From positions 25,085,001-25,149,000 of the forward strand of contig NC_064437.1 in NCBI RefSeq assembly GCF_023343835.1: 64,000 bases of DNA, in the 5' to 3' direction. The DNA is from Lagopus muta (Eukaryota > Chordata > Aves > Galliformes > Phasianidae). The notes beneath the pieces were generated by a model. The model saw only the letters and a program-made list of their open reading frames with translations. It had not been told where the DNA came from and did no database searches. Of this stretch, positions 569 to 46,000 are shown piece by piece (position 1 is the stretch's first letter; every line of letters starts with the position of its first letter). A program made the position numbers and the translations under genes.

Positions 569-3500
569 ATGGCCGCTCCCCGCCGCCTCCTCCTCCTCCT
601 CCTCCTCCTGAGCGCCGCCGCCCCCCTCGGCGCTAAGGTAAGCGCGGCCTCGGGGCTGACCTTGCCCGGAACGGCGCCTCCGCGCCCGCCCCGCCGACAA
701 AGGGCCGCGGCGACCCGGAGAGGCCGCTCGCCCGCGCCTGGGAGCCGGTTCCAGCCCTGCCCCCACGGCCTTTAGAGGTGGCACTGTTCCGCTGCTGCGT
801 GGGGAGCGGAGCCCCCCGGTTCGCAGGAGGGGTCTGAGCGATGCGCTGCTCCCCGCACAAAGCCGTGGCTGAGGTGGGATCGCCGATAGGACTTGGGGGG
901 GGGGGACGGCTCTTTGCTGCGAGGGGAGATTGAGGTGAGATGTCAGGGGGAAATTGTTCGCTCAGAGCGGTGAGGAGCCGGCGCTGCTGCCCAGAGCTGT
1001 GGGTGACCCATCCCTGGAAGTACCCCAGGCCACGGATGGGCCCTGGGCAGCCTGAGTTGGGTGCAGCCAGCCCATGGCATGGGTGGTGAGTGATCTTTGA
1101 GGTCCTTCCTGAGCCATTCTGTGGCTCATTCTGTGTACACCCCAGCTTTGAGCAGCGTTGTCACCTGAGCTGGGATTGCCTTTGGGTTCAAGCCCCAGTG
1201 TGCTGCTCCTGCTGCATTTTGCAGCCTTGCACACATTCTGCCTGCTCTGCTCTGCTTCCCAGGGTCAGCCTGCCAGATGTGCACTCCTTCACCCCACACA
1301 GAGCAGGCTGTGGATGCAGTGGTCATTAAGGGATTAACCTGCTGGTTGTGTTTTCTGCAGCATGCATGCAGAGAATGCCACAGAGTGCTTCAGTCCCTAG
1401 ATAAGCAAATTCCTTCCTGCACCAAGCTCTGGACACAGTGCCTCTGAAAAAACAGATGGTAGGGATTCCTCATGCACACCCCGTATTCCTTTCCTCTTTC
1501 CCTTCACAGCAGGATGATCAACGGTGCATCAGAGTTCTCCTTTCTGTGGGGAGGAAGGGACACAATTGAAAACACAGTCGTTTTTTTCAGCCACAGCTTT
1601 GATCAGAGCACAACACAGAGCACCCAGACCTGGGGGCTGAACACGGCGGTTCATTTCCAGGAGCACAAGATAACATCTGCAGGCAGTTTGAGGCATTAGG
1701 ACATCTGAAGCTGTTTAGTATCTCAAGCAAGTAGCAGAGTTTGCCATAGAGAGAAGCCCTGAGGTAAGGGATTGTGGATTTCTGTAGAGGACATGCAGTT
1801 AATGACCTCAGAAAAGGGCTGTTCAGAATTTAGTTCTTTTTCAGCTGCTTTTTTGTCTTATGAGAGCTTCCTGTGGCCTGCAGTGGTGCACAGGGCCCTA
1901 AGGCACATCACACTGCAACAGAGCACACCCCTGCAAGCTTCTCCACTCAGGGGAACTAACAGGGATTTGTTTTGTCTCTTCCTAGAAAGATTTCTAACCC
2001 CTGAGACACGGGCTTAATGAGTCCCAGGATTCAGTGCGCAGTGTGGGACACTGAGCCAATGACACACTAATTGCCATTATTCCCAGGTTTCTGGGAAACC
2101 CATTGTAGCTTAGAGTTGATCTGACACGCAACAGAGAATCATTAGAGGGTTTATTTTCTCCTTTCTGTTCTTCAGAAAGACCGCCTGGAGAACTGATAGG
2201 ATGTCAGCCTGGGCCCTCCCTCCTTCGCCAGGCTGAAGCAGTTGTTTGTGGCAGCCTTTGTCTGGCTCTGGTGGGGGGTAGAAGGGAAACAGCTGCTGAG
2301 CCTTTGGGTAGGCAGGAAAAGCTTTCAGTGATGCTGGCTTAGAGACAGCAATATTGGAAAATTTTGGAAAAGTTCCCCAGCGTCACCGTAGGCTCTGCTC
2401 ACCCCCGAGCAAGGGAACAGGAGGGCAGCCCTCACCAGAGCATGTGCGCAGCCTCCCGTGTAGGTGTTGAGGCACAGGAATACCGTGGTTAGCCTCAGAG
2501 AGGAAGAGCTGCAGCTGTATAGCCTGCGTGCCAAGCCACAAGTGCCTCCAGGGGAATTCTTGAGGAGAGCACCTGGCTGAGCTGCAGGTGGCCTGTCTTT
2601 TCTGCTGATGTGATTTCTAGCCCTTAACGTTTCTCATCAGCTGAGGAACTGTACCTGATCCTCCCTTCCATATCCAAGCCCAGGCAGAGCCAGCCTTACA
2701 GATCCTGCACCTACACTCACCTCCTGCCCCACAGTTTCTGGTCTGCTCCATGCATGGTTCTACAGCATGGGACAAGTTAGAGTGGGATTCAGCATCTCCC
2801 ATAACCAGGAGACTGCAGAAGTGTTGTTTTAAAGCCCCTTGGCTCTCTTTCTCCAAGGAACGGGGGGGGAAATCTGCTTGGCCAGAAGTAACCCTTGGGG
2901 TCTGCCGAGGGGCTTGGGAAACTGAAGCTGGGAGCTTATCTAATCTGGAGTCTATCCCACAAGCCTTAATTTATTATCTGGAAATTTGGAAAATGCAAGT
3001 ATCGCTAATTACAAACAAGAGCCATTTGTGTGTCATGGTTAGCACGGGTTCACTTCTGGCAACACAGCAAAGTCAGCCCAGATTGAAACCAGCTGCACGT
3101 ACCTGAGTTTCACCTCCACGTCTCAGGGCTGAGGACTCAGCTGCTGTCACACCGTGAGCCTCGCTGGCAAAGGCTGCAGCTCAGCACTGTCCTTGCTTAC
3201 ACAGATAAATAAGTGCTGCTGGGCGAGGGCTGGCAAGAGTGCTTGGTCATGGAAAACCTGAGAGCCAAATCAATCTATTTAGTGTGTGATTGATTGAGGA
3301 AGCAGGAACAGGGGCTTACAGAGGTAGAGGAACACATTTCATTTGAAAACTGCTGTCACTGCTTGAGCTGCAGCAGAGCCCACAGGGGTGGAGTGGGGCA
3401 AAGCCTGGAGAAAGGCTGGGTAAATATTGCCACTTCTGGCCCACACGCCTCCCCCTGGGCAGCCTGTGCACCCCTTGGTGCTCTGTGGCCACTCAGTCAC

Positions 3501-6500
3501 GTGGAAAGGGGCCAGCTGTGATTGATGCTCCAGCTCCTGAGAGACTGCTTTGCACTGAGCTCTTTGCACAGACAGATAAATCATTGTCCTCTCCTTCCCA
3601 GCAGCTGTGAAGGGCGCTTCCTCTGCAGGCCTGGAGATGCTTATCACAGGGGTCAGGGGGAGATCTGAACTGAAAATACAGCCTTTCGTTTCTGTCTTTG
3701 TAACCACGGAAGCTGCATAGCCAGCATTTCCACCTGCAGACTGATCGTGTGCAGTCAGGCAGAAACCGTCGTAGGACGCAGGTTGAAATGAGCATCTGGT
3801 AGCAGAAGGAAAGATCTTGCTGAAAATCTGCTTGTTTCTTTTACACTTCATTTTTACACAGCACTTGCTCTCTGTCAGAGAAGCACATCCAGCCAGCACA
3901 CCCATGTTGCAAGGAATTTGGTTGCACTGTTTTCACCATCAGCTGTTGTAATCACAAAAGGGTAAAGCATCAGGTGGTGTGGTGCTTTTTTTGCAGAGCA
4001 GGTTTACTTTTAACACACTCCATGGGCAGCACAGTCACTATGTGCACCTCGACCACACTTGGTTCTAACCCCAAATCAGCTCCTCTGCATCTCCTCTGCC
4101 CAGAGGATGCTGTTGGCAGATGCTATAGAAACAAATGCTCAGGCAGGAATTACACTGCAAGATGAAGAACATTTTGGCTTTATTACACCATGAAAGAGCA
4201 TCGAGCCAAGAGGCAGTCAACCAGAATAGTGAATCTAGCTCAGCAGACTGCTGAGCTTTCTTTTACATCCATCAATTTTGCAGACCAGTTCTTCCCACCA
4301 GGACGATCAGGGTTTTGCTATGAGTAGCACTGATACAGCCTCTCCATGTGTAACATAAGAGATGCTACACAGACAACACACACACACAAATTATTTGATC
4401 TCTTCTGCTACTACTGATACACCGTCAGCATTTTCAGCTGGCTAAATCACTTCTAGTCACTGCCCCATGGTAAGCTCATTGCTGCGTTTAACTCTCTGCT
4501 CACAGCTGTGTTGCAGTAAACAGCAAATTCACTCCTGCACACAATTTGCAAAAATCTCTGGAGCTTTTAGGGCATCACACAGCAGGAAAAGCATTGCAAG
4601 AGATCTTACTGAAACATACGCTCACTTACCTGCTGGGAATCTTAGAGGTGCAGTCAACGGCAGCCTGCAGTTGTGATTGCACAGGGGTGGGAGAGCTCAG
4701 GTTTGCCAAATTTAAAGGATTGGCCACAGCAAAGCATGCTGGGTGAGGGAGAAAGTCCTCTGCTGAGCACGGAGAGGCCAGCAAAGCTGTGCTGAGACAG
4801 CCTGCGAGAGGCTCTGGTTCTGAAGCGCTCTTGAAAATGACTTTTGTGACAGTCGCAGGGTGAAGAACTTGGACCTGAGCCGACTTATGCACAAAGAAGA
4901 GTTTATTCCCTGTGATACAGCTCTGCCAAAGGACAGATGCATCCCCCCCCACCCCCCTTCTCTGCAGCCAGGCATTGCAGCCTTCCTGCTGCTCCGTGCT
5001 GGCTGGCAGCTGGGCTGTGGGCTGCTGGTGTGGCTAAGCTGGGCTGGCAGTGAGCTTGCAGCTCAGGCTGCAGCCAGACTGAGTGCCACGCATGTCATAC
5101 CCAGCAGCCTTTCTCCATGCCACGAGATCCCAGAGGCATCCATCCATCCATCCATCCATCCTCTGGAGTTAGGCCACCAGGTTCCCCAGCTAACCGTTCT
5201 CTGTTTCTGTCAGGACAGTAGTGAGGCAGCAGACGGAGCTGGCCCCTGGGATGAAGAAGTTACCAAGTGGTGGGGAGAGTGGAGCTCGTGGTCCACCTGC
5301 TCGCGATCCTGCGGCGGAGGCGTGATGTCCCGGGAGCGGCACTGCCTGCGGCAGCGGTGGGTCCCAGCATGCATTCTCCACGGTGCCCCAACCTCCATTT
5401 GCCCCCTGCAGCTACTACGGTCCTGGAATTGGTCAAATAGGGTTCGTGGGGACCCAGCTGTTCCCTCTGGATCACCTCACCACCCAGCCCTTATCAGGCA
5501 CCTCGCCAGCCTGAGCTGCTAACAAGAGCCAGCATCGTACTGCGCAGCACACCGTTGGGGCTGCTCAGCCTCTTTCCCTTCTGCGTGACTGCACTCCTGA
5601 GGGCAGGAAGCTCAGACAAGGGCCCCCTACCTGCTCTGCCTCCTCCAGAAGAAAATTTCTTTTATGTGGGCTGGTTGGCAGCATAGTAAGGGTCCAGATG
5701 TGGTGACAGCCATCCGTCTGGACACCGCCTCCCCACTAACGAGGCTTGCCAATGTCTCTGCCTCTGCTTGACATCAAACCCAGCCAAAAGGCCCCTGCAG
5801 CTTTCGGCAGGGCAGCTTAAGTGTGAGCCAGCCATGCGCTGTGAAACAGTTTTTGCTGGAGTCTGCAGGCTGCCCCTGTTTCAGCTGAAAGAGATGGCAA
5901 TTTTGAAGCCTTATGATGTGAATTTAGGCTCTACCAACATTGTGTAAATTGTTGCTCTGCAGGAATAGCTAGACCTGAGCAGTCCAGCTTGAATGTGGTT
6001 CTTCATTACACAGTGAAGTTCCCATCTGTAACCTTGACCTTTCTCCCTGCATCTTCTCAGCTTTGAGGAATTTTTTTAGCTTTTGCATTAGTTGAGAAGT
6101 TCAGTATCCCTTGGACAAGTGCTGCTGGCCAGAACTAAAGCATCACTTGCTGAGAACCATGGTTTTTGTTCATCACCAAACCTCTCTTGCTAGTCTTGAA
6201 AGGTGTTCAGTACACATGATAGGTGCCATCTCTCTGCATGCTGCCCAGTGAATTCTGAAATCAGTTCCCCAGCTCACTTCTAAATCGTAGGTGCTTCTGT
6301 GGAAATGGTGGATCATCAAGCCCCATTGGCCTTTTGTCACACAACCCTTCTGCAGAGATGTGCAGACAAAGCCTTGGAAATACTTCAGCTGTTTCCCATC
6401 CACCCAAACTGAGCCTAAAATCACACTCCAAAGCTAACAGCACTGAAGATGTCTTTCAGGGGAGACGTTGACCACTGTAAATCCTGAAAACCTTACTCTA

Positions 6501-9500
6501 ATAAAATCCCACCCTGACTTTTCTATTATCCTTGATTTCTTAGTGCTTTGCAGACCTCTAGCTTATTTCTGCTTTCACACATTCTGCTTTGCAGGCTCCA
6601 GATGCCCCAGGGAACAAACAGCACCATGTGTGTTGGCCAAGCCAAGCACTACCAACTGTGCCAGCAGCAGGTGAGAATTGCTTCCAGCACTGACTGGTCC
6701 GTACTGGGGGATGTGAGGTTGGACCAGCAAGTGCAGGAGTGCAGGAGCAGCAGCAGTGAGGGTCTGGCAGAGGAGTGCAGATAAGAGGCACAGTGCACTC
6801 CTGAGGAGTTGCCAGTGTGCCTCTGGGAGTTGGGCTCCTCTCTGGGTCTGAAAGGTGGGGGAGAAGGATATAAAACATATTCATCGTGGGGTGGGGGGAA
6901 GGAAGAAGTTTTTCTGGTATGTTTTTCCCTTTGCTGGAAGTAGATTTTGCAGTACTGTTAACTACAGCTGTCTGAGGCGATGGAAGCCTGGCCTTTCTGC
7001 CCGTGTTACTGCACATCAAAGTCCATCACTGATTCCTTCCAGGGTGGACAGGGCATTTTCATCCTCCAAGGATGTAGCAGGGCCAAGCAGCTGTCACAGC
7101 CAGGGCTGCGATATAGGGAGCTTTTGATCACATTTATTCCCTCCATAGCCCTGCCCAGCCAACACAGCAAGCTTCAAACAACAGCAGTGCTCCAGTTTCA
7201 ATGCCAAAGCCTTTGGAAAGCGGTACTACCACTGGATGCCCCTCTATCCAGGTGGGTTTTCACAGCTTCACACAAAGGATCAGGGTGAGAAAACACCTGC
7301 AGGATTTTCTCAGACACAGGAGGAGGACCCAGGGGCGAGGGATGGATGCTCCTGGCTGGTCCAGAAGTGCTTCCCTATGCTCCCTGCTTTGGAGAAATCA
7401 TCCCCTCTCTTCACAGAGCCACCCCAGCCAGCCAGGCCCCTTCTCACACTGGCTTGGATCCTATGTCAGAATGTGCTGGCGAGCAGACACAGAACACAGG
7501 CATCTCTCAGGTGTCTTGACTCACCACCAGTCACCTTGGCAGAGTGGTGTTCAGTCGGTGTGTGCCTCCTACCATTTCAGCCACCTCCGTCAGCCAGCAT
7601 GCTTCCCACTGGGATGGCGGTGGGTTGTTCTGAACAGGATGGCCATCCATTTCCTGCACAGAGGAGATAAATTGCTTCACACGAGTTGCCAGATGGCCCT
7701 TGAGGCCCAGACTCAGCTCCCCTGAGATATGACCGCCTTTCTGGACCTGCCTGTTCTTCCATTAGCTGCCAAGGGAACATAGAACATCTGCACCTCTAAC
7801 TTCCATTGCTCAGCTGGAAGGGGTGCAGCTGGCCACAGCCCCACTGTGGATACCTCTCTTGCGGGTCATACTTGCTCCTGTGTATTTATGTGTGGCCTGG
7901 GATCTGCTGATGTGGATTCCCATATCTGGCACAGGGAATGGCACTGCAAAGGGGAGAGGTTTTGCCATCAAGAAGCAATTCTGTGTGTGGCCCCAGGTGC
8001 AGCCTCATACCACGATCCCTTTACTACCAAGGTCTGTAGCCTTGCAGTTCATCCCGAGAAGCAAGAACATCTAAGATGATATCAAACCAGCAGTGTGGAT
8101 AAAGGGAAGTTCCCCTCCCTCACTGCCCACCCCCTTGGTCTGCCTCTGTCCCTTCAGATGACTACACCAGCATCTCCAACAAGCCGTGTGACCTCCAGTG
8201 CACCACGCGGAATGGAGAGAGGCAGCTGATGGCCCGAGCCCAGGATGGTACCTCCTGCAAGGACAGGACCTACCAAGGGGTCTGCATCAATGGGAAGTGC
8301 GAGGTGAGGCTCTGGAAGGAAACAGTACTGAAACCAGGGGTATAAATGCCTTGTTGAACTGCCTAGTCACTGTGAAGCCAAGGGTCCCAGCAGAGAGGTG
8401 AAACCAAGGCCTGGCAAGAGTGATGACATTCACTTTTGAATGCCTCTGGGCTAGAGCAGGACAGAGGGACTCACACAAAAGGAGTTAGATACATCCACAT
8501 TCACAGTGGGTAACAGAACTTTTCTCCCAGCACAGAGAAGACTAGGACTGCAGCTCAGTGTTCATAGCCAAACTGAAAAAGATTGGATTTTTTCCCTTGT
8601 AGAATAAGGGTAAAGGATGTGTGTGTGGAGTGGTAGAGAGAGGTATCTTAAAAACTCAAGCAGCCTGCCTGCCTTTGATGCAGCGTCTCCTGGAAGATGA
8701 TGCTGTACATCACTACTACAGTGAGAAGGATTTGCCAAAAGATGGGAGACTGAATAAATGGCAACAGACTTTCTGAGTCCTATTTTCTGCACCCACCCAT
8801 GAGATCCTGCCCCAGGTTCAGGAGCACAGTGCACACGGTCACAAACTACCCTGCATCCACACGCAGAAGCTCACCTAAAGAATAAGGTAGCATCACCTTG
8901 AAAAGACACTGTCCCCTAAGAGACACTCTATTTTTGCTCTGTTCCTTGCAGCCAGTGGGGTGTGATGGGAGCCTGTATTCGGCCCGGACGATGGACAGAT
9001 GCAGGGTGTGTGGAGGGGACGGCAGCACTTGTCACCGTGTCTCAGGCAGCTTCCGAAAGGCAATCTCACAGATAGGTACTCCCTGCTACCACAGTCCAGA
9101 GACTTCACCTGCTACTTCTTACCACCAACTGGCATGAAGGGTGACTGGCTTGAATGAGGGTAGGAGTTTCCCAGCTGCTTGGTGGAAAAAGCTGAAGAGT
9201 GCCACCTCTGCTTAAATACCGACATCTTATCCTTTTGGATTAATCAGAGGAGATTGGGTGTGATATGCTGTAAATGAGGCCAGCAAGGTTTTCTTTCACA
9301 TCTTCACCGTAGGAGGCAGCTGGGGATCTCTTTGTTCCTATTGATTTTGGCATCTCGCGCACCTCAGATGATGTGATAAGGTCAATGAATCTTCTTTTAT
9401 TTGTGCTAGGTGTTCACTGGAAGATTAGGCTCCTCTGATGAGGGTCACAGCATTTGTTTCAGCCTGCACTTCGTCTCCAGCTTTCCCCAGTCCTGTGGCT

Positions 9501-12500
9501 GATGCAGCTGAGGGACAGTCCCTCTGAAACTGGGCTGAGATTAATGGTTCATCTCTTGCAACCTCATGGCCCATTCCTCCACCAAGAAGGAACAGACTGT
9601 GGTATACTCATTAGTAATTAATTAACTGTGGTTTGAGGATGTTTTGGAACATCGTTTTACACTGCTATTGTTCCACTAGTCTACCTCATTCTCCACAGAT
9701 GCTGGACCAGAGAAGTATTCTGGCTCCTTTCCAGGGTGTGGTAATAGTGCTAACCTCTCTAGAAGCACACAGACAGTCTTGGCCTTCCATTCCAGGCCTC
9801 ATAAAATCTTACAGGATGGAAAAAAGCAATCAACAGACTTTCTAACAGGAAAGGCAAGCTGGCAAAGCCCCACAACGTTAAGAGCCTTTTACTTCCTACC
9901 CATTTAAAGGTCAATCTTTATGCTCCTCTTGAGACAAATTCTGTTGAGTCGGGAGCTGTGGGGACCTGCAGTCTTCTCCCTGCACCCTTCAGCACCAGTG
10001 CTGATCAATAGTAAGCTTTTTATGTGCTCTTGTGAGGAAAAGCTTGACAGCACATTCATTCATGCACCCACAGCCACACTATTAAGCTCACGCAATTCCT
10101 TTCTGACTTCAAACCCAGCAGTGGTCAAACTGAGCCTTAGAGACCTGCAGTGGTCATTTGCAAAGGGATTTCAGAAGGGAGCCAGGATTAGAGCTCACAG
10201 CTTGGCACAACATGCTTATGTCCTTAACATCCTGCTAGGGGTAGCGCTGCCCTCCTACATGCACACCTATCCCACGAGGTGCTTTGCCTATGAGCACTCT
10301 TCTGTTCCATCCTTGGAGTTTCTTCACCTCCCGTTCCTGCTCCTCAGGTTACGTGTTCATCACCAGCATCCCTGCCGGTGCCACGGACATCCTCATCATG
10401 GAGCGCAGGAAGACAGAAAACATCCTGGGTAAGCGGGGGGTCTGGCTGGGTGTGGAGGTCCCAGCTCAGCTGCTTATGGGGTGGGAGGACACCTGAGCCG
10501 TTCCTGTGAGCATCTCCTCCTGGGTAGCACAGGGTTTGCTTTCCTTAGTGCCAGCACAGCCTCAGCGCTCCGCACGGAGCATCACGCTTGTCTCTTTTTT
10601 CCTTTGAAGCGCTCGCTGATGAATATGGGCATTTCTTCTTCAACGGCAACTCTGCCATTGACAACCCCCAGAACTTCAGGGTAGCTGGCACGATCTTCAA
10701 GTACAGGCGGCCTTCGAGTCTGAATTCAGATGGGCTGGAGTATATCATAGCTCACGGCCCCACTAACCAGTCTCTGAATGCCATGGTATGTGAAGAGGTA
10801 CTTTTAGCCCTTCCTGTCTTGCCTGTCCCAAACTATGAGCCTCCCTCAGACAAACTGCTTCCTAATTTTGTTCTCATACCAACCCTGTGGCTGAGGAAGC
10901 CAGATATTGCCTCGTGGGGTTTCCTTTTGGGTTTAAGAGGATGCTATCTTCTCTTAACATCTGTCACAAAGCGATTAGAAGAAATGCATGCCCTTAGAAT
11001 AAAAGAGGTTTTGTTTTCCTTCCCTGCTTCCTCCAGTACTATAACTTTAATGGGAAAATGCCACATATAACTTATGACTACACTGTACCACGGACACCAC
11101 CACCTCTCCGAACTGCAGCCCCTGCTGTAGACAGACCTCGTTATCATCACCCAGTAGAGACCAGCCAGAGCCGTCCTGTTCCAGCCAACTTCAGAGCTGC
11201 CAAGGACTCCAATGTCACACGGCTTTCCCTGTCACCAGATGACACCAGCAAACAGCTTCCTCTAAAAGACAGGCATGAAGATTTAGGCTTCAGCCATCCA
11301 CACTTCTTCCACACCAACTCCACTAATCACCCTCGGGGCTGGGGATGGGAACAAGGTGAAGAAAAGGAGAAGTATGAGTTCCACATAAGACAGGTCTACC
11401 ATGCAAACACAGCAGGGGAGGAAGAACGAGAGGAAGCAGCAGCAATTGGTGGAGAAACAGAATTGGGTTGGTTGCTTTGTTTTTCCTTTTCTCCCAAGCC
11501 TTAATTTATTGAAAAGAGGCATTGAGACATTCTACGCTGGTTCACTTGAAATGTAGGGTGGCTTTTCCATCAGGCAGACAGGGAAAAAGGATGGTTAATA
11601 GCAGGGGTGGAGACTGTCAGAGTGCAGCTGGGTGCTCCTTGTGGGAAGAGGAGCAGATCTGAGGTCTGTCTGAGAAAGCCAAACAGTTAAGGGGCAGGAC
11701 TAGGAGTGAAATGCACCTACAACATAGGTCTGAGCTTTAATCCAACTTCTGGGCCACGGGCAGGTGTGAGGATCTCACGTGAGGCTGCTCAGGATAATTA
11801 AAGCCTGTTGATGCACCCTGATGGCAACTTAGGGTTTCAAAGCCAAATACTCAGTGTTTTTTGCATTACCAGGCACCACTAAACCACATGCTAAAGTATA
11901 AGGCGTGCAAGATAGTTAACACATCCCAATGTTCTTCTTCCAGCCCTCAAATTCAACCAGATTTCCATCAGCACAGCTGTACCCTACAGCATGAGGAGGT
12001 CTGAGCTATCAGAGAACAGCCGCGTCGCATCCTCCAGGCTTCGGCTCTTCAGGAGGTTGTGCCACCAGGACCAGCACCACGCTGCCTTCTGCAGGGAGCT
12101 GCAGTACCTGGCTGCCAGGCTGGCCCAGAGGAACACCACAGTAGGACTATGGGCTGAAACAGCTGCCCGGTGGCCACAGGGCCTCCACAAAGCACCGTCC
12201 CATAAGAACTCACTGCAGGACTTGAAGGTGGAGATGTTTGCTGGGAGACAGGGGAAAGCGAGCAACTACAGTGTGATGGCATCTGTGGAGAGCTCTCTGC
12301 TGGGTGCCAGCACAACGGAGGACATCAGCCAGGCAGAGCCTCTGCGGGCCCCCGGCACTGAAAGGTGGCACTTGGTTTCCTGGGCAAAACAGGAGCACGG
12401 TTGGCTGGGAGGGAGGGTTGAACCAGTCCTCTGGCAGTCTCACTGCTGTCCCTGATGTCCCCGTTTGCCAGCGACTCTCCATGGTATCTGTTATAGTTGC

Positions 12501-15500
12501 TTGAGCAACACTGTGTCTTCCAGATGTTTGGCACGGCTCATGGTCCAACACAGAGCTTCTGGAACATACGTTGTGTTCCTTTGCCTCAGAGATCCATTTA
12601 GATGTGTTTGGAAGGACCTGTGGAGCTATGGCTGTTCACAGTCTTACTAGCTGAATATAGGAGGTGGTTGCCCCATCCCTGGAGGCATTCAAGGCCAGGC
12701 TGGATGTGGCTCTGGGCAGCCTGGTCTGGTGGCTGGGCAGCCTGGGTCTTGGCGACCCTGCACATAGCAGGGAGGTTGAAACTAGATGATCATTGTGGTC
12801 CTTTTTCAACCCAGGCCATTCTGTGATTCTGTGAAGGCTTCACGCTCTGCTTACCAGTGGCGCATCTTGCCCATGGTGGGGGAGATAGGGTTGGAGAACA
12901 GAACCATTGAGTTTCTTCCCATTTTCCAAGAAGGAAAGGTGGAAATACAGTCAGTATATTTTATGTTCACAGCAATTTTACGTCTTTATTTCCTGCCTCC
13001 TCCTCTGTCTGCAGCAATGAGTTTGATGTGAGCCCTGTGGGCCACGATGACATCAGCTTGGCTGACATGTATCGGTGGAAGGTCTCGGCTTATGCCCCCT
13101 GCAGCTCCACCTGCACTTCAGGTAGGTAAAGACCCAGAGCTTACTTTGAAGACTGCTTTTGTCCTGGTGACTTCTGTAGTTGGAATCCACTCAGCAGCCT
13201 CCACTTTCTTTGCTATTTGCTTCCCTCTTTTTTGGTATCTGAAGAGGACAGATGTACTGTTTTCCCATTTCCAAATTCCATTGGTCTTAGAGTGGTGTCT
13301 TGAAGTTTCTGACTTTTGTAACAGTGGTGCAATCATAATTTCTTTAGTTTGCAGGGTGAGTTTTAGCATCAGCTTATATGAGAATTTAGGAGAGGTTTAT
13401 ATGCCAACACTCAGAGTCCATTCAGAGCATCTGGCTGGCTTTTGTCTGGAGATTTTTATCAGTTCAAGCCTTGCTGAGGTGACTGATCTTCCAGGACCTT
13501 TTTGGCTACTGGTATTTTTAAATTGCAAATAGACTTTCAGAGGCAGTGAATGCTCTTCGGTGATTTTCTAATAGCTGGGGGAGGCTTTTGGTTCTGGTGG
13601 AGCCTGACCTAGACAAGATCTTGGTTGTCCAGCAGGTATCAGTGCCTCCTATGCAATGTGTGTACGGTACGACGGAGTGGAAGTGGACGAAGCGTACTGC
13701 GATGCCCTGACCCGACCAGAACCTACACATGAATTTTGTACAGGCAGAGACTGCCAGCCTCGGTGAGTGGAAATGACATCTGCTCCCCCTGGGGAATACA
13801 CGTCTTTGTAAGGATCATTTCCTGCTCACAGTATGCAGCCATTTCTGGTCTGGAAGATGTACTTAAACAGCTAAACCTGTGTATCCTCATGTAAGTGAAA
13901 AGAGGGAAGGAATTTTCTGTGTCTAAATTACCCGCTAAGCACAAAGTTGTTTTTCAAGACCACAGACCTACACCTGATGAGCAGATTCATAGCAGCAGTT
14001 AGTGGGTCAGGGAGTCCCAGGCACACGAACACTCCCCAGCCACCCTCCATCCCCGGGTCACTTACGTGGGTTTTGCTTTGTGCTTTCTCTCCTGGGGACT
14101 GTTTGTGGAGGTGGGAAACGAGCCGGTGGAGTGAGTGCTCCAGGACCTGTGGCGAGGGCTACCAGTACCGCACCGTGCGCTGCTGGAAGATGCTGGCTCC
14201 AGGCTTCGACAGCTCTGTTTACGATGACCTCTGCGAGACAGCTGGGCTGGCCAGGCCCATAGAAAGGAAAGCCTGCAAGAACAAGGCCTGCGGACCCCAG
14301 TGGGAGCTCTCAGGGTGGTCTGAGGTAGGCATCGGGGGAACTTTGCATCCAAGGATGAGCCGGGGTCTGAAGGAAAATGACAGATGTTGGGTGCTTCCCG
14401 CTGGCGAGCGCTGAGGAAGCCCTGCCCAACTGCACGCTCACTTTTACTCACTTTTCTCCTTCCCGGCTGGGGCCCTTCTCCTCTCCACCAGTGCAGCAGG
14501 AGGAAAACGCCTTTGCTTATTCCTCTTGTGCTCTGCTTTGGAATCCAACTCGGTGTCATTGCAGTGCTCAGCCCGATGCGGCAGCCAGGGCACGATGAAG
14601 AGGGCGGTGCGCTGCTCGGTGGAAGCAGCCCTCTGCGATGAGTCCCAGAAGCCCAGCAGTGAGAAGGAGTGCACAGGGCCGCCCTGCGACCGCCGCTGGA
14701 CCGCTTCCGACTGGGGCCCGGTGAGTGCAGAGAGGCTGCTCCTCCATGCCCCCACTTCTGAGGGCACAGGGCTGGCAGGAGGGAGCGGATGAGCAGTCAT
14801 GCTGCTGCTCACTGTTGGCTTTCCTCTAGCAGAGGCTAGAGAAATAGTGATAATGTACATTTTTGAGCCAACGGTGTGCCCAGGTGGCCAAGAAGGCCAG
14901 CATCATCCTGGCTTGTATCAGCAGTAGTGCAGCCAGCAGTAGCAGGGAGGGATCATCCCCCTGTACTCAGCACTTGAGTTCTGTGTTCAATTTTGGGCCC
15001 TTCACAAGAAAGGCATTGAGTTGCTGGAGCTTGTCCAGAGAAGGGCAGGGATCTCCATGAGGTCTGGAGCACAGCGTGATGGGGAGCAGCTGAGGGAATG
15101 TGATGGGGCAGTGTGGAGAAGAGGAGTGCAGGGGAGACTTCACTGCTCTCTGTAACTGCCTGAAAGGAGGCTGTGGTGATGTGGAGTCGGCCTCTGCTCC
15201 CAGGTAACGATGACAGGATGGGATAGAATGGCCTCAGCACCAAGGGAGGGTCAGGTTGGGTATTAGGAAACATTTCTTCTCAGTAAGAGTGGTGAGGCAC
15301 AGGCACAGGCTGCCCAGGGAGTGGTGGAGTCCAAGGGTCTTTGGAGGTGCATCTGGTCAGGGAGTTCCATTCTCCAGGTGCCAAGAGCTCCTCAAATTAT
15401 TGAATGGAGCTCATTGAGACCTAACTGGAACTTAGAATCATGGAATCATTAAGGTTGGAAATGATCTCTAAGATCATCTAATCCAAGCATTGACCCATCA

Positions 15501-18500
15501 TCCATGTCCGCCAAACCATGTCCCTCACTGCCGCATTTCCATGTTTCTCCAACACCTCTAGGGACCCTTGGGATCAAGTACCATAGCCCCAGATCCAGGG
15601 CTCCAGACTCTCACTGCTGACCGTAGCCCCTCCACCTCCCTGGTGTGTCTAAATGCCCTTTATTCCTCCAAGTGCTCAGGTTCGTGTGGTGAGGGACGCA
15701 TAAACCGTTTCGTCGCCTGTCGCAACCTGGAGGGCAAGGTGATCTCTGACACACAGTGTGACCCAGCTGCCAAGCCCCTGGCTGTCCATCCGTGTGGAGA
15801 CAAGGACTGCCCTGCACACTGGGTGGAGCAGGAGTGGGACCAGGTAAAGCCAAGCCCAGCCTTCCGTCCTCAGCCCTGTCCCACAGGAGGTGATGGGCAC
15901 TTGGCTCCCTTGGTGGAGCAAAGTTGTACAGTGTGACCACCAGCTGCATCGTTGCTCCTTCCAAAAAGAGGGAAGAGGAAAATACCCCAGCTTGTCCCCA
16001 CCACACCCCAGTCTGTGGCACTTGTGGCCCTCCAAGCTCTCTGAGGTCCAGAGGTCTCTGGGAAGGCAGCAGTGTCTTAAGGAAGTCCTCCTCCTCTCCC
16101 ACTTCTGGCTCCCAGCTGGCAGTTGTAGGCACCTCAGCAGAGCCCCATCCAGAATCTGCACTTACACCCCCAAGATTTTGGTCTCGCTGCTAAAGAGAAA
16201 GCCCTACAAAAACCAACTGCATCTCCAGTTAATAAGAGCCAGAGGTAAGGCCTCAGCCCAGGCCCCTGTCCTGGGAGTCACTTCCAGCCCAAGAGCATTT
16301 ACTTGCCCCAGGTGCAATGAACATGGCCCAGGGGCCCTGTTCTATTAAGCCAGCAATTGCTGCCAGCCTGCTTGCCCTCTGTTGCTAGAGAGGCTATTAT
16401 GAGCTTCCATTACAAGCTGGTCCAAATCCCAGAGCACCCAGAGAGAACATCATGACACACCTGTGGGGTTTGGGCTTTGCCTTGTAAAGTCCTGAGAAAA
16501 ACAGGCATTCACGGAGCACAAAGGAGGGCTTCTAAGGAATCCTTTTTCTAGCCTTCCTAGCTGCTGACTGCGTTCAGTTGGGAGTCCCTCCAGCACAAGT
16601 AACGAGCAGAAATCATTTACAATTGGGGACCCACGGCACTCCTGTAGCCCTTTCCTGCTCTGTCCTGTGGTGTAGGTCCCACCCAATGCTGCAGTGCAGT
16701 TTTTGAGCTGTGCCTGAGTGATTAAACTCACCTGAAATCTGAAGGGCCAGCTGGGCTCCCCACTTTTGCCTGTGCCAGCTTCTTTGCTGTGCTCTCAGCT
16801 GTTCAGCTGCGGGTGAGCTGTTTGCAGGATGACTCAGGAGGGATGTGAGCCAGCTGTGCTGGCCCTGGCACTGTGAAGATGGGCACTGAGCAGTGAAGTC
16901 TTGCACTGGTAAGTGCTGCCTGAGACACCAGGGAACACAGCTAGAATGAGATTCTGCCTCCCACTGCCTGCTTCTCTCGGTGTTGTCCTGAGAGGTCGAT
17001 CCCTCCCATCTGTGCCTGCATAGCTTTGGGCTGAGCGTGGGTACTTGCCTGTGCAATCTCCTGCAGTGCACCAGCTTGGTCCCCTTGAGCCCTCACAGAG
17101 CTTGTCAGTACTCCAGGATGTAATTACTGCACAAACACGCTACGTGGTCTTTTAGGACATAGAGATATATAAAATAAGACAGAAACAGCCTCTTACATCC
17201 TTACCTTGGCTGCTCCAGGTCCCTTGTGGGAACTGCTCTCAGGCCAGCCAGGCTCAATTCAGCATCCTCCATGCTGAACACAAAACCATCTCCTGTCCCT
17301 ATTCCAGAGGAATTCAGCTCCTTTGCAGGCACCCCTTGCTCCCGTGACCCGGGCTGCACTACCTCCATCAGCCTGGTGTTAGCACGTGCATTCAGCATCT
17401 TTTGAGCAGGATGCTACCTTACCTGAAGCTCTACAGCAGAGCAGCAGTTTATGTTCTACTTCCCAGTGTGATGCCAGCTGCGGACGAGGGACAAAGAGCC
17501 GGGTTGTCCTGTGTGCAGGGCTGGAGAATGGGGTGTACAGGGAGTACCCTGAGAAGCGCTGTGAGGCTGCACAAAAGCCTGAGGAGCAAGCTGCCTGCTT
17601 CATGAGGCCGTGTTCAACCTGGTTCACTACCTCCTGGTCTCAGGTACGGCTCAGCATGGCAGGGAAGTGGGAGAAGAGCTAACCCTGGGTGGTGGAGCGC
17701 GACCTGCAGTGAGGATTGCCAGCAGTTCAGTCTGCTGAGGGCTCTGTTGGGTCTGGGTGGGACGACAAGCTCTGCTTTTTAGCAGACCAGGCAGCAAAAG
17801 AAAGGACTGGCCCCCAGCAGGTGGAGAAAACCTTTGAGCTCGTGGATTATTGCCTCAGGCAAAAGCATGTACCACTGCAGGTGATGCAATCATGTCTTCT
17901 CTGCCAGCAGTTGATGTTCTGTCCTCTTGATTGCTTTACTTAGCATTTAGTGAATGGGGGGGAGGTGAAGCTGCCATTTTGTCCATCTTCTAAAACAGCA
18001 TCAGCCTTCAAAGCAAAACCAACTCCGAGCTGCGTTAAAAAGCAGAAAGCAACCTCCTGCCTCATCTTAGAGAGGCTCTCTTCAAGCAGCCGGAGGAGAG
18101 CCTGAGTTTGGGCTTAGATCTGACCCAAACCTCTTTGAGAGCAGTCTCCAAAGCACAGACTGCCAGGTCTCAGTGGAAGAAAGAGCTCGGGACCTACACC
18201 TCAATGAAAACCTACCTCTCATGCTCTCTCTCCTCTCCCTCGATCCCGACAGTGCAGCAAGACATGCGGTGCTGGCGTGCGACTGCGCGAGGTGAAGTGC
18301 TACCAGGGGGAAGCGCTGGCCCAGGGCTGTGACCTTGCTACCAAACCAGAAGGCAGGCAGATGTGTCAGCTCCAGCCGTGCCCCACAGAGGCCCCAGGTG
18401 AGACTGGGAGAGCAGGGAGGAGGAAGAGCCCTGGGAACCTTTCGCTCCCTCCAGCTCTCAGCTTGGGGAAGCGTGTCTGCTTTGTAACCCCTTCTGTGGT

Positions 18501-18635
18501 TGCTTCTGCTCCCCAGAAGAAGACTGTGAAGACAAAGCGACGGCCAACTGCGTGCTTGTGCTGAAGGTGAAGCTGTGCTCTCACTGGTACTACAGGAAGG
18601 CTTGCTGCCGGTCGTGTCGCCTCAAGTCACCGTGA
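569..18635 (+). CDS. ADAMTSL2-like: ADAMTSL2-like secreted matrix glycoprotein (18 coding exons, complete)
   Basis: Coding exons: 569-637, 5214-5356, 6595-6670, 7149-7251, 8158-8303, 8952-9075, 10348-10428, 10610-10785, 11037-11355, 11944-12364, 13015-13121, 13636-13762, 14111-14324, 14565-14720, 15673-15843, 17467-17643, 18253-18397, 18517-18635. All joins use AG/GT sites and keep phase, giving 957 residues (human ADAMTSL2 is about 951). The start ATG has a G at +4 and opens an eight-leucine signal peptide (residues 1-22). Thrombospondin repeat 1 begins at W42 (WWGEWSSW, then CSRSCGGG, with WxxW C-mannosylation and CxxSCG fucosylation motifs). A Cys-rich region (about 97-200) and spacer (about 205-330) follow, then a poorly conserved linker (about 330-565), six thrombospondin repeats (about 565-920) and a PLAC domain ending [10 protein letters not shown]. 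It has no metalloprotease domain, as in all ADAMTSL proteins. Known for the family: ADAMTSL2 binds LTBP1 and fibrillin in the matrix and tunes TGF-beta signalling. Position beside FAM163A suggests an ohnolog, not ADAMTSL2 itself. The linker exons 9-10 are the least certain. Confidence 0.9.
894..906 (+). repeat. poly-G tract in intron 1
   Basis: A run of about 12 G within the first 300 bp of intron 1 of the ADAMTSL2-like gene. The rest of this 4.6-kb intron (638-5213) holds short simple repeats (a CA run near 4375-4388 and the ATCC run listed separately), and I recognise no transposon or other gene in it. Confidence 0.6.
5139..5162 (+). repeat. (CATC)n microsatellite
   Basis: About six tandem copies of a 4-bp CATC unit, lying about 50 bp upstream of the exon 2 acceptor of the ADAMTSL2-like gene. 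A simple repeat. Confidence 0.85.
12661..12836 (+). repeat. CR1 LINE 3' fragment
   Basis: Matches the CR1 3' region: the 'ccatccctggaggcattcaa' stretch, 'gggcagcctgg', 'catagcagggaggttgaa', 'gatgatcattgtggtccttt' and the terminal 'attctgtgattctgtga' tail. Plus orientation, 5'-truncated, in the intron between exons 10 and 11 of the ADAMTSL2-like gene. Confidence 0.85.
14862..15370 (+). repeat. CR1 LINE fragment
   Basis: About 500 bp of diverged CR1 in plus orientation. It contains 'gtgcccaggtggccaagaag', 'ctgtactcagcact', 'ttgtccagagaagggca', 'ctgcctgaaaggaggctgt' and 'ggctgcccagggagtggtgg', in the order of the CR1 reverse-transcriptase 3' end. The 3' tail is missing or very diverged. It lies in the intron between exons 14 and 15 of the ADAMTSL2-like gene. 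Confidence 0.85.
15432..15556 (-). repeat. CR1 LINE 3' fragment, reverse orientation
   Basis: Begins with the reversed CR1 3' tail ('aatcatggaatcattaagg') and continues with 'ttggaaatgatctctaagat' and 'catctaatccaagcattgac'. This is the usual minus-strand CR1 pattern. It ends about 115 bp before exon 15 of the ADAMTSL2-like gene and faces the plus-strand CR1 just upstream. Confidence 0.9.
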
Positions 18636-21460: not shown

Positions 21461-22718
<1,258 letters not shown>

Positions 22719-43000: not shown

Positions 43001-46000
43001 AGCAGCAGTTCCACACACCTCTCCCCTTCTCAGAGCATTGACTCAGCCCGTGCTCCTCACATTATTAGTTTCCCTTCCATTATTAGCTTCTTGTGACAGG
43101 ATACTGGGGTACCGTATAGCAGGGCAGGGATCAGGTCTCTTCTTTCCCCTCCACCTTGCAGCATCCTGATGAACAAGCATTCACTGCATATCCCACATAC
43201 CAACTACCTTTCCTCCCTTTTCTGGCTTTTTTAAAAACAGAAGAGCAAACTTAACGTCTCATGGGGAAAACAAGTTGAACAAACACCTTTAATGGCCTGA
43301 GCAGGAGAAGTCTTTAACCGATTCCCATTGTGATATGAAGGCTCAAAAACCTCACTTGAAGTCAGGGTTATCACAGTCCTCTTTTTCTTTTTTGCCCTTC
43401 AGATTCAACAGGCAGACTGCACTTGATTCAAGGAGAATTTCTGGCTGCTTCATCACTCAGATCTAAGACTTCTTTACAAGCTCAATGCTGACTGCCAGAG
43501 AGTTTGCTTTAGGAACGTGAAGTCCAGCCGTAAGAATCAGAAAGATTGACATGATGGAAAGGTGATACAAGAGGTGTAATGACAGAGGGACTAATGCAAT
43601 AGGAAAGCATTATAAAGGAAGGAAAAAGGACAGTTCACCCATCTCTGAAGATCTAGGCTTGCAGGGGAGAACTTCACCAAGGAGGGATCCCCAGAAAGAA
43701 ATCCTTGCACAGTGGCTGTCAGCCCTTAAGTGAGGTCTAAGAGAAGTATGGCCAGGCTTTACCCCTTCCTGTTGCACAGTTGAATTGCCTTCACCTGTGC
43801 TCCCAGGGCTGACCAGGTCTTTTCCCCAGGTGCCCAATCAGTGGTTCAGGCTGTGACTCAACAGTTACCATACACGAACTCAGACACAGACTTCCAAATT
43901 AACTGCAAAAAACACCAAAGTCAGGAAGAACTCCTGGGACTCTTTTCCTGCACTCCAATCCTCAGGTTGCATACAGCCACCTGGGAAGCTTGGCAGAGAG
44001 AACTACAGTAGGAAGGTGTTCTGGAGAGAAGGAAGGTAGGAAAAGAGAGAGGAAAAAAAAAAACAGAGGTGACAAATTCCCTCAACCTATTGGATCTTCC
44101 GAACTGCTCCTCTCCGTCTCCTTCTAGAAATATACTGTCAAACAAATTCAAAACTCTCAAAGTCCAACAAGAATGACAAGGAACCCCCATAACTTTAGAC
44201 AGTGAATAAAGTCTTACTGGTTTCCTTTAGTCACCAAGTGAAACTGTAGGGATCAAAGTCTCCACAAGAATCATCACCCAGCTTTGTCTCCCTGTTTAAT
44301 GGGACTGCACAAGACACTTAATTCTGCCTACAGCAGCCCAGGAAATTCCACAGAGCTCATCTTCAGATCACTAAGATGTAATAACAAATAAATACACAGA
44401 GTATTACCATAACTATCAGAGAACAAGATGATGGTTAACTGACCTTGGATGGTCTTTAACACAGATCAGATGACCCAAAAGAGAGAAGAGAAAAACTTAG
44501 GTTAGGATGGCATATGAAGCCATATCCCAGCCTGGAGTCTTGCCACTCCACATTAAAACAGGTATTAAAATTTTTGCAAGCAGCAATGCATCAACAACAC
44601 AATCTCAGTAACAAAAGCAAGCAAAGAGCCTCCAATCTGGGATTAAGCCAAGAAGAAGCTACAGATCACTCATCCAGCTACTCACTTGTTTCAGGCCATC
44701 ACCCAGACCTACTTCTTGTGCATCCACTGGCTCTGACTTCTCTTCTGCTGCCTGATGAAAGATCTCTGTCTCACAGCTGGGTTCCAAAGGAGGCAGCTCA
44801 GCCATGAGTACTGCAAAGACAATAACTTGGCTATTATTCTTTCTTGGACTGATGCAGTTACATATTAAACAGAAAACACTTGAAAAATGAAAGCACTGGT
44901 TGCATTTTTCCATTCTCTTGTAGCATTCAGTTACCACATTCACAAACTTTTGCTAGAGAGGCATCCTTCATAAATGAATTCCAGCTAGACAAGTCAGGAA
45001 CCCTGCAGGTACTGCACACAGTTTTCTGCCATGGCTGTTACAGGAACAGTGAGTACACACAGTCTCTTCTGTGGGAAATTATAGCTTAATCTTTCATAGT
45101 AGTATTAGTAAATTTTCAATCTCAAGAAGTGCACTGAAGGGCTCCAATGCCTTGTGGAGCGGGGCATTCAAGAGATCCTTCTACTTTTGTTATCTGCTGT
45201 CTGCAACAGTTAGCATTTGTAGTCCTCCACACAGGTTCAGAAAGCTTATATTTGGAAGGTAGATCTCTTCTTTCACCTGCCACCAAAAACCAGCGGCAAC
45301 TTGTAGAAAACTTCCAGTTAAGCTCTCTGCTACTGAGACAATTCCTTAAACTACTTCTGCAGCACCACACAGACCTTCCTTGATAAATCAGAAGGGAACA
45401 GGGACTATTACAGCAACTGAAAATACAGCAACATCTACCAGAAATACATCTGCTTGTCCACAATGCTTAAAAGACCTACATGTTTCCAGCTAAAAGATGC
45501 CTTACCTTGTGGCATCTTTTTCTGCTCTTTCTCACTTGAGGAGCTCTTTTTCAGGGTTATCAAGGAACCTTCTTTTGTCTCCTTAACCATAATTGTATCA
45601 GACATGCTTTCGAAAACTTCAAATATGGAGAGAAATCCATACTGCCTGTACTGGAACGTCCGCTTAAAGCGTGTGTAGTACGCATCGTTGAAATCCAAGA
45701 GCAGAAGTGGTGAGGAACTCAAGAGATCTTGCAGCTCCCTCTTCACTGCTGCTGGCAGGACACGAGTCTTGCCCTTTGGAGGCAAATCCCACTGATTCTG
45801 AGAGAGAAAAGCAGCCCTTCCCTTCCTAGCAACACTCCGTGCTTTACCACTTGTTTTCTGTCTGGAAATCAGTTTGGAAATATCTTTGGTGGTCTCGTCG
45901 GCAACAGCTACAATAGGAAAAAAATATTAGATATTTATAAGCTATTTGAAGACTGGAGCAGTAAACCATTCAAAGCTCTGCATAGGCAAAGCTGTTCTTT

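Follow-up and report, generated by a model that had tools for sequence, protein, structure and literature searches.

A probable ancient sister of ADAMTSL2 beside FAM163A in Lagopus muta, apparently missing among mammals from placentals

Introduction

ADAMTSL2 is described as a matrix protein that is secreted and has no enzymatic activity, and binding to FBN1 and LTBP1 has been reported for it; its effects on TGF-beta are inconsistent, some studies reporting them and others not, and disease is attributed mainly to a loss of secretion (PMC10972594). Mutations in this gene cause geleophysic dysplasia. Such a gene, named here ADAMTSL2B, lies on the forward strand of a 64,000-nucleotide stretch of the Lagopus muta genome, the whole of which is called the window (contig NC_064437.1, hereafter C8, positions 25085001-25149000, in a 1.03-Gb genome). 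We consider it likely that this window gene is an old sister of ADAMTSL2, derived from a duplicated ADAMTSL2-FAM163 stretch, probably in the early vertebrate genome duplications, and that it was lost toward placental mammals. The proposal extends an earlier note on the same DNA, which had read the locus as one half of an old duplicated pair.

ADAMTSL2 beside FAM163B and paired chromosomal blocks

Searching the genome for the PLAC domain gave 11 places, one of which, at C22:6988045, is 2.6 kb from the only other FAM163 match. Assembled without exon 1, the ADAMTSL2 found there occupies C22:6970600-6988155 (+), with 17 exons encoding 927 amino acids (aa). FAM163B (C22:6990748-6991134, -) stands tail-to-tail with it across a gap of 2593 bp, as FAM163A does with the window gene across 2829 bp at C8. 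Beyond FAM163B lies an exon resembling DBH, with a copper monooxygenase domain. The second ADAMTSL2 that the earlier note had anticipated next to FAM163B is thus present, in like orientation and with similar spacing.

The two genes have equal intron phases in 17/17 shared exons and equal exon lengths in 14 of the 17, the differing ones being exons 9 and 10, which encode the linker, and exon 11. Over 959 aligned positions their proteins share 47.9% identity. Identity reaches 58% from the first thrombospondin repeat (TSR1) to the spacer, 64% in the later repeats and 66% in PLAC, and drops to 17% in a middle linker of about 270 residues; cysteines number 60 in the window protein and 59 in the C22 protein without exon 1. 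The whole-length alignment with ADAMTSL2 that had been claimed therefore holds for the domains (58-66%) and fails in the linker, while the claimed near-identity in length comes down to similarity (994 aa, against 927 aa without exon 1). In a genome search with the C-terminal repeats (41 matches), exons above 60% identity were found on C8 and C22 only; two C22 exons matched at 44 and 47%, and the best match off these two contigs at 49%.

Other neighbours are paired in the same manner. The F_actin_bind domain, which we take to be specific to ABL kinases, has two matches genome-wide, one at C8:25237189, 134 kb from the window gene, and one at C22:6035021. Evr1_Alr, presumably a domain of QSOX and GFER, is found at C8:24981124 (104 kb from the window gene), at C22:8030190 and in two exons on C18, which are probably GFER. 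With FAM163, ABL and QSOX, C8 and C22 carry the further gene pairs expected of paralogous blocks from two rounds (2R) of genome duplication. SEC16, another expected pair, had no match anywhere in the genome and is uninformative on this point. From these neighbours, and from the human gene order at 1q25 and 9q34, C8 and C22 would correspond to human 1q21-q25 and 9q33-q34. These human segments are described as paralogous regions, thought to derive from two early rounds of vertebrate duplication (PMC1309616).

Two clades and their distribution

Three trees were built, of 42, 29 and 33 sequences (rows), in which ADAMTSL2 proper is represented by amniotes only. In each of them ADAMTSL2 proper and the window type form the two sides of one branch, with support of 100 in the 42-row tree and 100/100 in the other two. 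The window gene does not belong to the clade of mammalian ADAMTSL2 (100/100), whose mammalian rows are platypus and wombat, with no placental. Forcing mammal A and mammal B sequences together in the 33-row tree costs 575 log-likelihood units (p=3e-54), and in the same tree four window-type rows, one of platypus and three of marsupials, are united in a clade within the window type (100/99). Resolution is poor at the base of the window type, where lungfish, coelacanth and sharks change position from one tree to another.

The sequences came from three protein searches. In the first, run with an 882-aa draft of the window protein, 120 of 986 matches were listed, all of them birds by name, ratites and tinamous included. 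The second, with the C22 protein as query, listed 120 of 1017 matches, almost every row under the name ADAMTS-like 2 or ATL2; they belong to birds, turtles, crocodilians, lizards, wombat and platypus. In the third, which gave preference to records of at least about 908 aa, 120 of 1832 matches were listed. Among the matches listed, amniotes with the window type are birds, turtles, a crocodile, lizards, snakes, platypus (1 row) and marsupials (7 rows); other tetrapods and lobe-finned fishes are caecilians, salamanders, coelacanth and lungfish; other fishes are reedfish, paddlefish, bowfin, gar, many teleosts, shark and chimaera.

Both types occur in wombat and in platypus. The supposed absence from mammals could consequently not be maintained, since platypus and marsupial records carry the gene and the four of them in the tree group within the window-type clade. 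Among mammals only placentals seem to be missing from the matches listed: none appears by name among the 120 of 1832, whose 8 mammal rows are 1 platypus and 7 marsupial. One would expect to see any full-length placental copy there, because the five marsupial rows longer than 1000 aa score 1459-1502 bits and listed scores run down to 1170 bits.

Two side observations concern these matches. Frogs do not appear by name among the same 120 of 1832, though caecilians and salamanders do; the gene may have been lost in frogs, or their copies may be shorter or more diverged. The big-headed turtle record P0259 is misnamed: it carries the name 'transcription factor SOX-5-like' and over 975 residues shows a 73% match to the window type.

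Structure and neighbourhood of the window gene

The window gene has 18 coding exons, from an ATG at 569 to a stop codon ending at 18635 (+). Its coding length of 2985 nucleotides (nt) gives 994 aa, with the sole stop at the end and GT-AG borders in 17/17 introns. Exon borders were set from reading frames and splice signals, then corrected with bird proteins including the full-length owl protein P0001. Pfam was run on an 882-aa draft, in which the middle linker was too short and the domain regions were the same as in the final protein; it matched 7 families, including TSP1-type domains, ADAMTS_spacer1, ADAMTS_CR_3 and PLAC, and no peptidase or metalloprotease domain. Seven thrombospondin repeat cores are counted in the final protein, so that the seven repeats and PLAC of the earlier note stand. 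The layout, TSR1, cysteine-rich domain, spacer, linker, six further repeats and C-terminal PLAC, is that of an ADAMTS-like protein of the ADAMTSL2 type, as is the lack of a metalloprotease domain. An AlphaFold model of the owl orthologue, made from a 26-row alignment, was too poor (mean pLDDT, the per-residue confidence, 42.7; pTM, the overall score, 0.24) and was left unused. The features are as follows.

569..637, +, exon 1: start codon and hydrophobic leader, comparable to that of owl P0001
5214..5356, +, exon 2: first thrombospondin repeat begins; Pfam TSP_1
6595..6670, +, exon 3: remainder of the first thrombospondin repeat
7149..7251, +, exon 4: start of the cysteine-rich domain, with the diagnostic FKQQQC site (FREEQC in ADAMTSL2 proper)
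8158..8303, +, exon 5: cysteine-rich domain; Pfam ADAMTS_CR_3
8952..9075, +, exon 6: cysteine-rich domain into spacer
10348..10428, +, exon 7: spacer; Pfam ADAMTS_spacer1
10610..10785, +, exon 8: spacer; Pfam ADAMTS_spacer1
11037..11466, +, exon 9: end of the spacer and first part of the fast-evolving middle linker
11944..12364, +, exon 10: middle linker, second part
13015..13121, +, exon 11: second thrombospondin repeat begins
13636..13762, +, exon 12: second thrombospondin repeat
14111..14324, +, exon 13: third thrombospondin repeat
14565..14720, +, exon 14: fourth thrombospondin repeat
15673..15843, +, exon 15: fifth thrombospondin repeat
17467..17643, +, exon 16: sixth thrombospondin repeat
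18253..18397, +, exon 17: seventh thrombospondin repeat
18517..18635, +, exon 18: PLAC domain and stop codon
21464..22703, -, FAM163A: two coding exons, exon 1 starting at 22703 and exon 2 at 21847-21464; Pfam FAM163

Downstream of the window gene, FAM163A is followed by a LOTUS-domain exon (45435-45926, -), which by its domain match fits TDRD5, and then by exons at about 49046, 51051 and 52138 (+), recognised by eye as NPHS2. Upstream and outside the window, C8:25065001-25085000 contains two LAP1_C (TOR1AIP-type) exons, one per strand, the nearer about 4 kb away. FAM163A itself displays a run of 12 glutamates after its membrane segment (window 21782-21817, -); the corresponding stretch of FAM163B in the same genome is shorter and of mixed acidic residues.

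Diagnostic sites and function

For comparison of sites, the type of each row was taken from the search that had produced it. The window type includes 197 rows of the first and third searches and the window's own, 198 in all, and ADAMTSL2 includes 120 rows of the search with the C22 query and the gene of this genome, 121 in all; the assignment was tested by the 42-row tree for 31 window-type and 11 ADAMTSL2 rows. At the diagnostic site of the cysteine-rich domain, ADAMTSL2 reads FREEQC in 113/121 rows, FREQQC in one and other strings in seven. The window type has FK followed by Q or E in 198/198 rows, sharks included, and neither the FK-type nor the FR-type motif occurs in the opposite set. An RQRR run is likewise found in 113/121 ADAMTSL2 rows against 0/198 of the window type, where RQRL (101) or QQRL (70) mostly take its place.

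We use human ADAMTSL2 residue numbers, and R113H, E114K and P147L are presumably disease alleles. R113H and E114K, which a literature search did not confirm and which we take to be alleles of geleophysic dysplasia, fall on residues changed in the window type. The equivalents of P147, A165 and R221 are unchanged in 198/198 window-type rows; at the equivalent of R61, 179 rows have R, 12 have W and 7 are gapped. R61H, A165T and R221C are given as ADAMTSL2 variants, R61H as a disease variant (PMC10972594). The 12 rows with W at the place of R61 are from characins, knifefish and catfishes (P0293, P0296-P0298, P0301, P0302, P0304, P0307-P0309, P0313, P0315).

Another observation concerns the second repeat (TSR2), at which 83 of the 121 ADAMTSL2 rows (a total that counts the row of this genome) are gapped against 0/198 window-type rows, in a sample that is biased as to isoforms. 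In the crocodile ADAMTSL2 row P0215 the gap corresponds to exons 11 and 12 (231 nt here, frame kept). This suggests a conserved exon-skipping isoform.

The O-fucose consensus is kept in most repeats of the 198 window-type rows: TSR1 in 191, TSR2 and TSR3 in 197 each, TSR6 and TSR7 in 194 each, TSR5 in 127 and TSR4 in none. As domain order, cysteine count and O-fucose sites are kept, the window protein would be secreted, O-fucosylated and incorporated in the matrix like ADAMTSL2. On the other hand, its choice of partners probably differs, because the FK/FR site and the RQRR run differ between the types, and with FK in every row against the FR of ADAMTSL2 the same function cannot be assumed.

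How far the two proteins overlap may be seen in two ways, both tentative. They could be redundant, with the same job in the same tissues, so that placentals lost one without consequence. The identical domain order, the near-equal cysteines (60 against 59 without exon 1) and the O-fucose sites retained in TSR1, 2, 3, 6 and 7 of 191-197 of the 198 rows would fit such a case, which we nevertheless find rather doubtful in view of the retention of the window type alongside ADAMTSL2 in many lineages, the 17% identity of the linker, the invariable FK and the lack of any RQRR. Alternatively, and as a speculation, two genes of the jawed-vertebrate ancestor could have split roles, ADAMTSL2 serving one set of microfibril or latent-TGF-beta partners and the FK-type ADAMTSL2B another. 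The loss of the second gene by placentals would then perhaps explain why loss of ADAMTSL2 is lethal or disabling in mice and humans, an effect that might be softened or shifted elsewhere, in marsupials, birds and fishes.

Date of the split

Under a 75% group consensus, 77 alignment columns separate ADAMTSL2 from the window type of sharks, ray-finned fishes and tetrapods alike; three columns join ADAMTSL2 with the tetrapod window type, and the other pairings have 2 and 3. Under full consensus, 38 columns set ADAMTSL2 apart and none supports any of the three pairings. The ADAMTSL2 of this genome shows 48.1% identity with the window protein and 52.9% with shark window type, the ranges being 47-50% for window-type proteins of tetrapods and 47-53% for those of fishes. 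Columns and identities lean to an early split, which is not proof, and the paired blocks are the stronger argument, so that the date rests on synteny.

Several points weigh against this history. A tree that joins ADAMTSL2 with the tetrapod window type against fishes (29 rows) surpasses the free one by 0.38 log-likelihood units, with p=0.548 in the approximately unbiased (AU) test, and the alternative branch, which would fit the early date, has support of only 54/9 in this 29-row tree, where fish ADAMTSL2 proper is missing. No fish ADAMTSL2 proper was obtained in the protein searches, and a tetrapod-stem duplication is thus not rejected; this lack is itself uninformative, since such sequences are expected to score below the rows listed in the third search. 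Finally, the absence from placentals rests on one protein search (120 of 1832 matches listed), not on a scan of placental genomes.

The same AU result, together with the fact that every fish sequence obtained is of one type, would fit a later duplication, on the tetrapod stem, of the segment with ADAMTSL2 and FAM163, fishes keeping a single window-like gene and ADAMTSL2 undergoing a later burst of change. We judge this scenario unlikely. The ABL and QSOX matches lie on the same two contigs, C8 and C22, and because of them the block seems to be part of the large paralogous region known in human. The mere three columns uniting ADAMTSL2 and the tetrapod window type are no excess, and they vanish at full consensus. 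In addition, the burst on the stem would have to be large, since ADAMTSL2 is nearly static within amniotes, its domains being 92-97% identical between bird and platypus.

That the window gene is decaying or silent is highly improbable in the face of an open 994-aa frame with 18 canonical exons, of 91-92% identity to owl over the kept tree columns and of 74-77% identity between bird and shark window type in the domains. As for a relocated sole ADAMTSL2 of the bird, or a recent bird-only duplicate, nothing was found in favour of either, and both can practically be dismissed, the first by the ADAMTSL2 beside FAM163B and the second because forcing bird A and bird B together (33 rows) costs 720 log-likelihood units (AU p=2.99e-47). 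These were the two outcomes named beforehand as contrary to an old duplicated pair, and neither occurred; two fully supported clades, the rejection of a bird-only duplicate (AU p=3e-47) and ABL and QSOX on both contigs all agree with that pair.

Proposed history and its meaning

According to the history that we favour, one stretch with ADAMTSL2 and FAM163 tail-to-tail would have been duplicated, the early vertebrate genome duplications being the most likely occasion, giving the present ADAMTSL2 beside FAM163B and ADAMTSL2B beside FAM163A. ADAMTSL2B would have been kept in cartilaginous and ray-finned fishes, coelacanth, lungfish, caecilians, salamanders, reptiles, birds, monotremes and marsupials, and most likely lost en route to placental mammals. 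Its product would be a secreted, non-enzymatic matrix glycoprotein that, as ADAMTSL2, binds microfibril or latent-TGF-beta partners via its cysteine-rich, spacer and thrombospondin domains. Partner choice or affinity would be altered relative to ADAMTSL2, because the site in the cysteine-rich domain consistently differs and the middle linkers are hardly alike.

In the listed records of birds, marsupials and fishes the second gene is mostly also called 'ADAMTS-like protein 2' or ATL2; consequently, results on zebrafish or chick 'ADAMTSL2' may concern the wrong gene. Knockouts of ADAMTSL2 may also be masked by the second gene in birds, marsupials and fishes. The consistent FK/FR change offers a natural experiment on the residues that set partner choice, and the apparent loss in placentals makes the question of compensation directly testable.

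Comparison with known systems

The window gene is already annotated under several names. In chicken, ADAMTSL2L ('ADAMTS like 2-like', chromosome 8; PMC11432379) is very likely its orthologue, by name and chromosome. What that source offers on ADAMTSL2L is an intronic single nucleotide polymorphism, in a study where no association was significant after correction, and its account of the gene, confined to the polymorphism, is silent on origin or distribution. Records of coelacanth, trout and cavefish are named si:ch211-267e7.3, a zebrafish clone name, and those of coelacanth and trout group with the window type in the 42-row tree. In the open-licence literature of PubMed Central we found no paper on the ohnolog status of the window-type gene or on its absence from placentals.

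A survey of 2007 counted three zebrafish orthologues, ADAMTSL2a/b/c (PMC1867822); its account does not tell which of the three is of the window type, and the sequences used here exclude zebrafish. Zebrafish adamtsl7, mentioned in two zebrafish papers, is another ADAMTS-like gene.

Among solved structures, the chains closest by sequence (owl-orthologue residues 52-316) are the TSR-cysteine-rich-spacer chains of ADAMTS13 (PDB 3ghm, 3ghn, 3vn4, 6qig). ADAMTS13 differs in being a member of the protease family, and none of the 10 matched structure sequences is ADAMTSL2.

ADAMTSL2 itself, at human 9q34 and here on C22, resembles the window gene in its domain order, its lack of a protease, its 17/17 intron phases and its tail-to-tail FAM163 paralogue. 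It differs from it in sequence (48% overall identity and 17% in the linker), in FREEQC instead of FKQQQC, in the RQRR run that only ADAMTSL2 carries, and in belonging to another clade and another contig.

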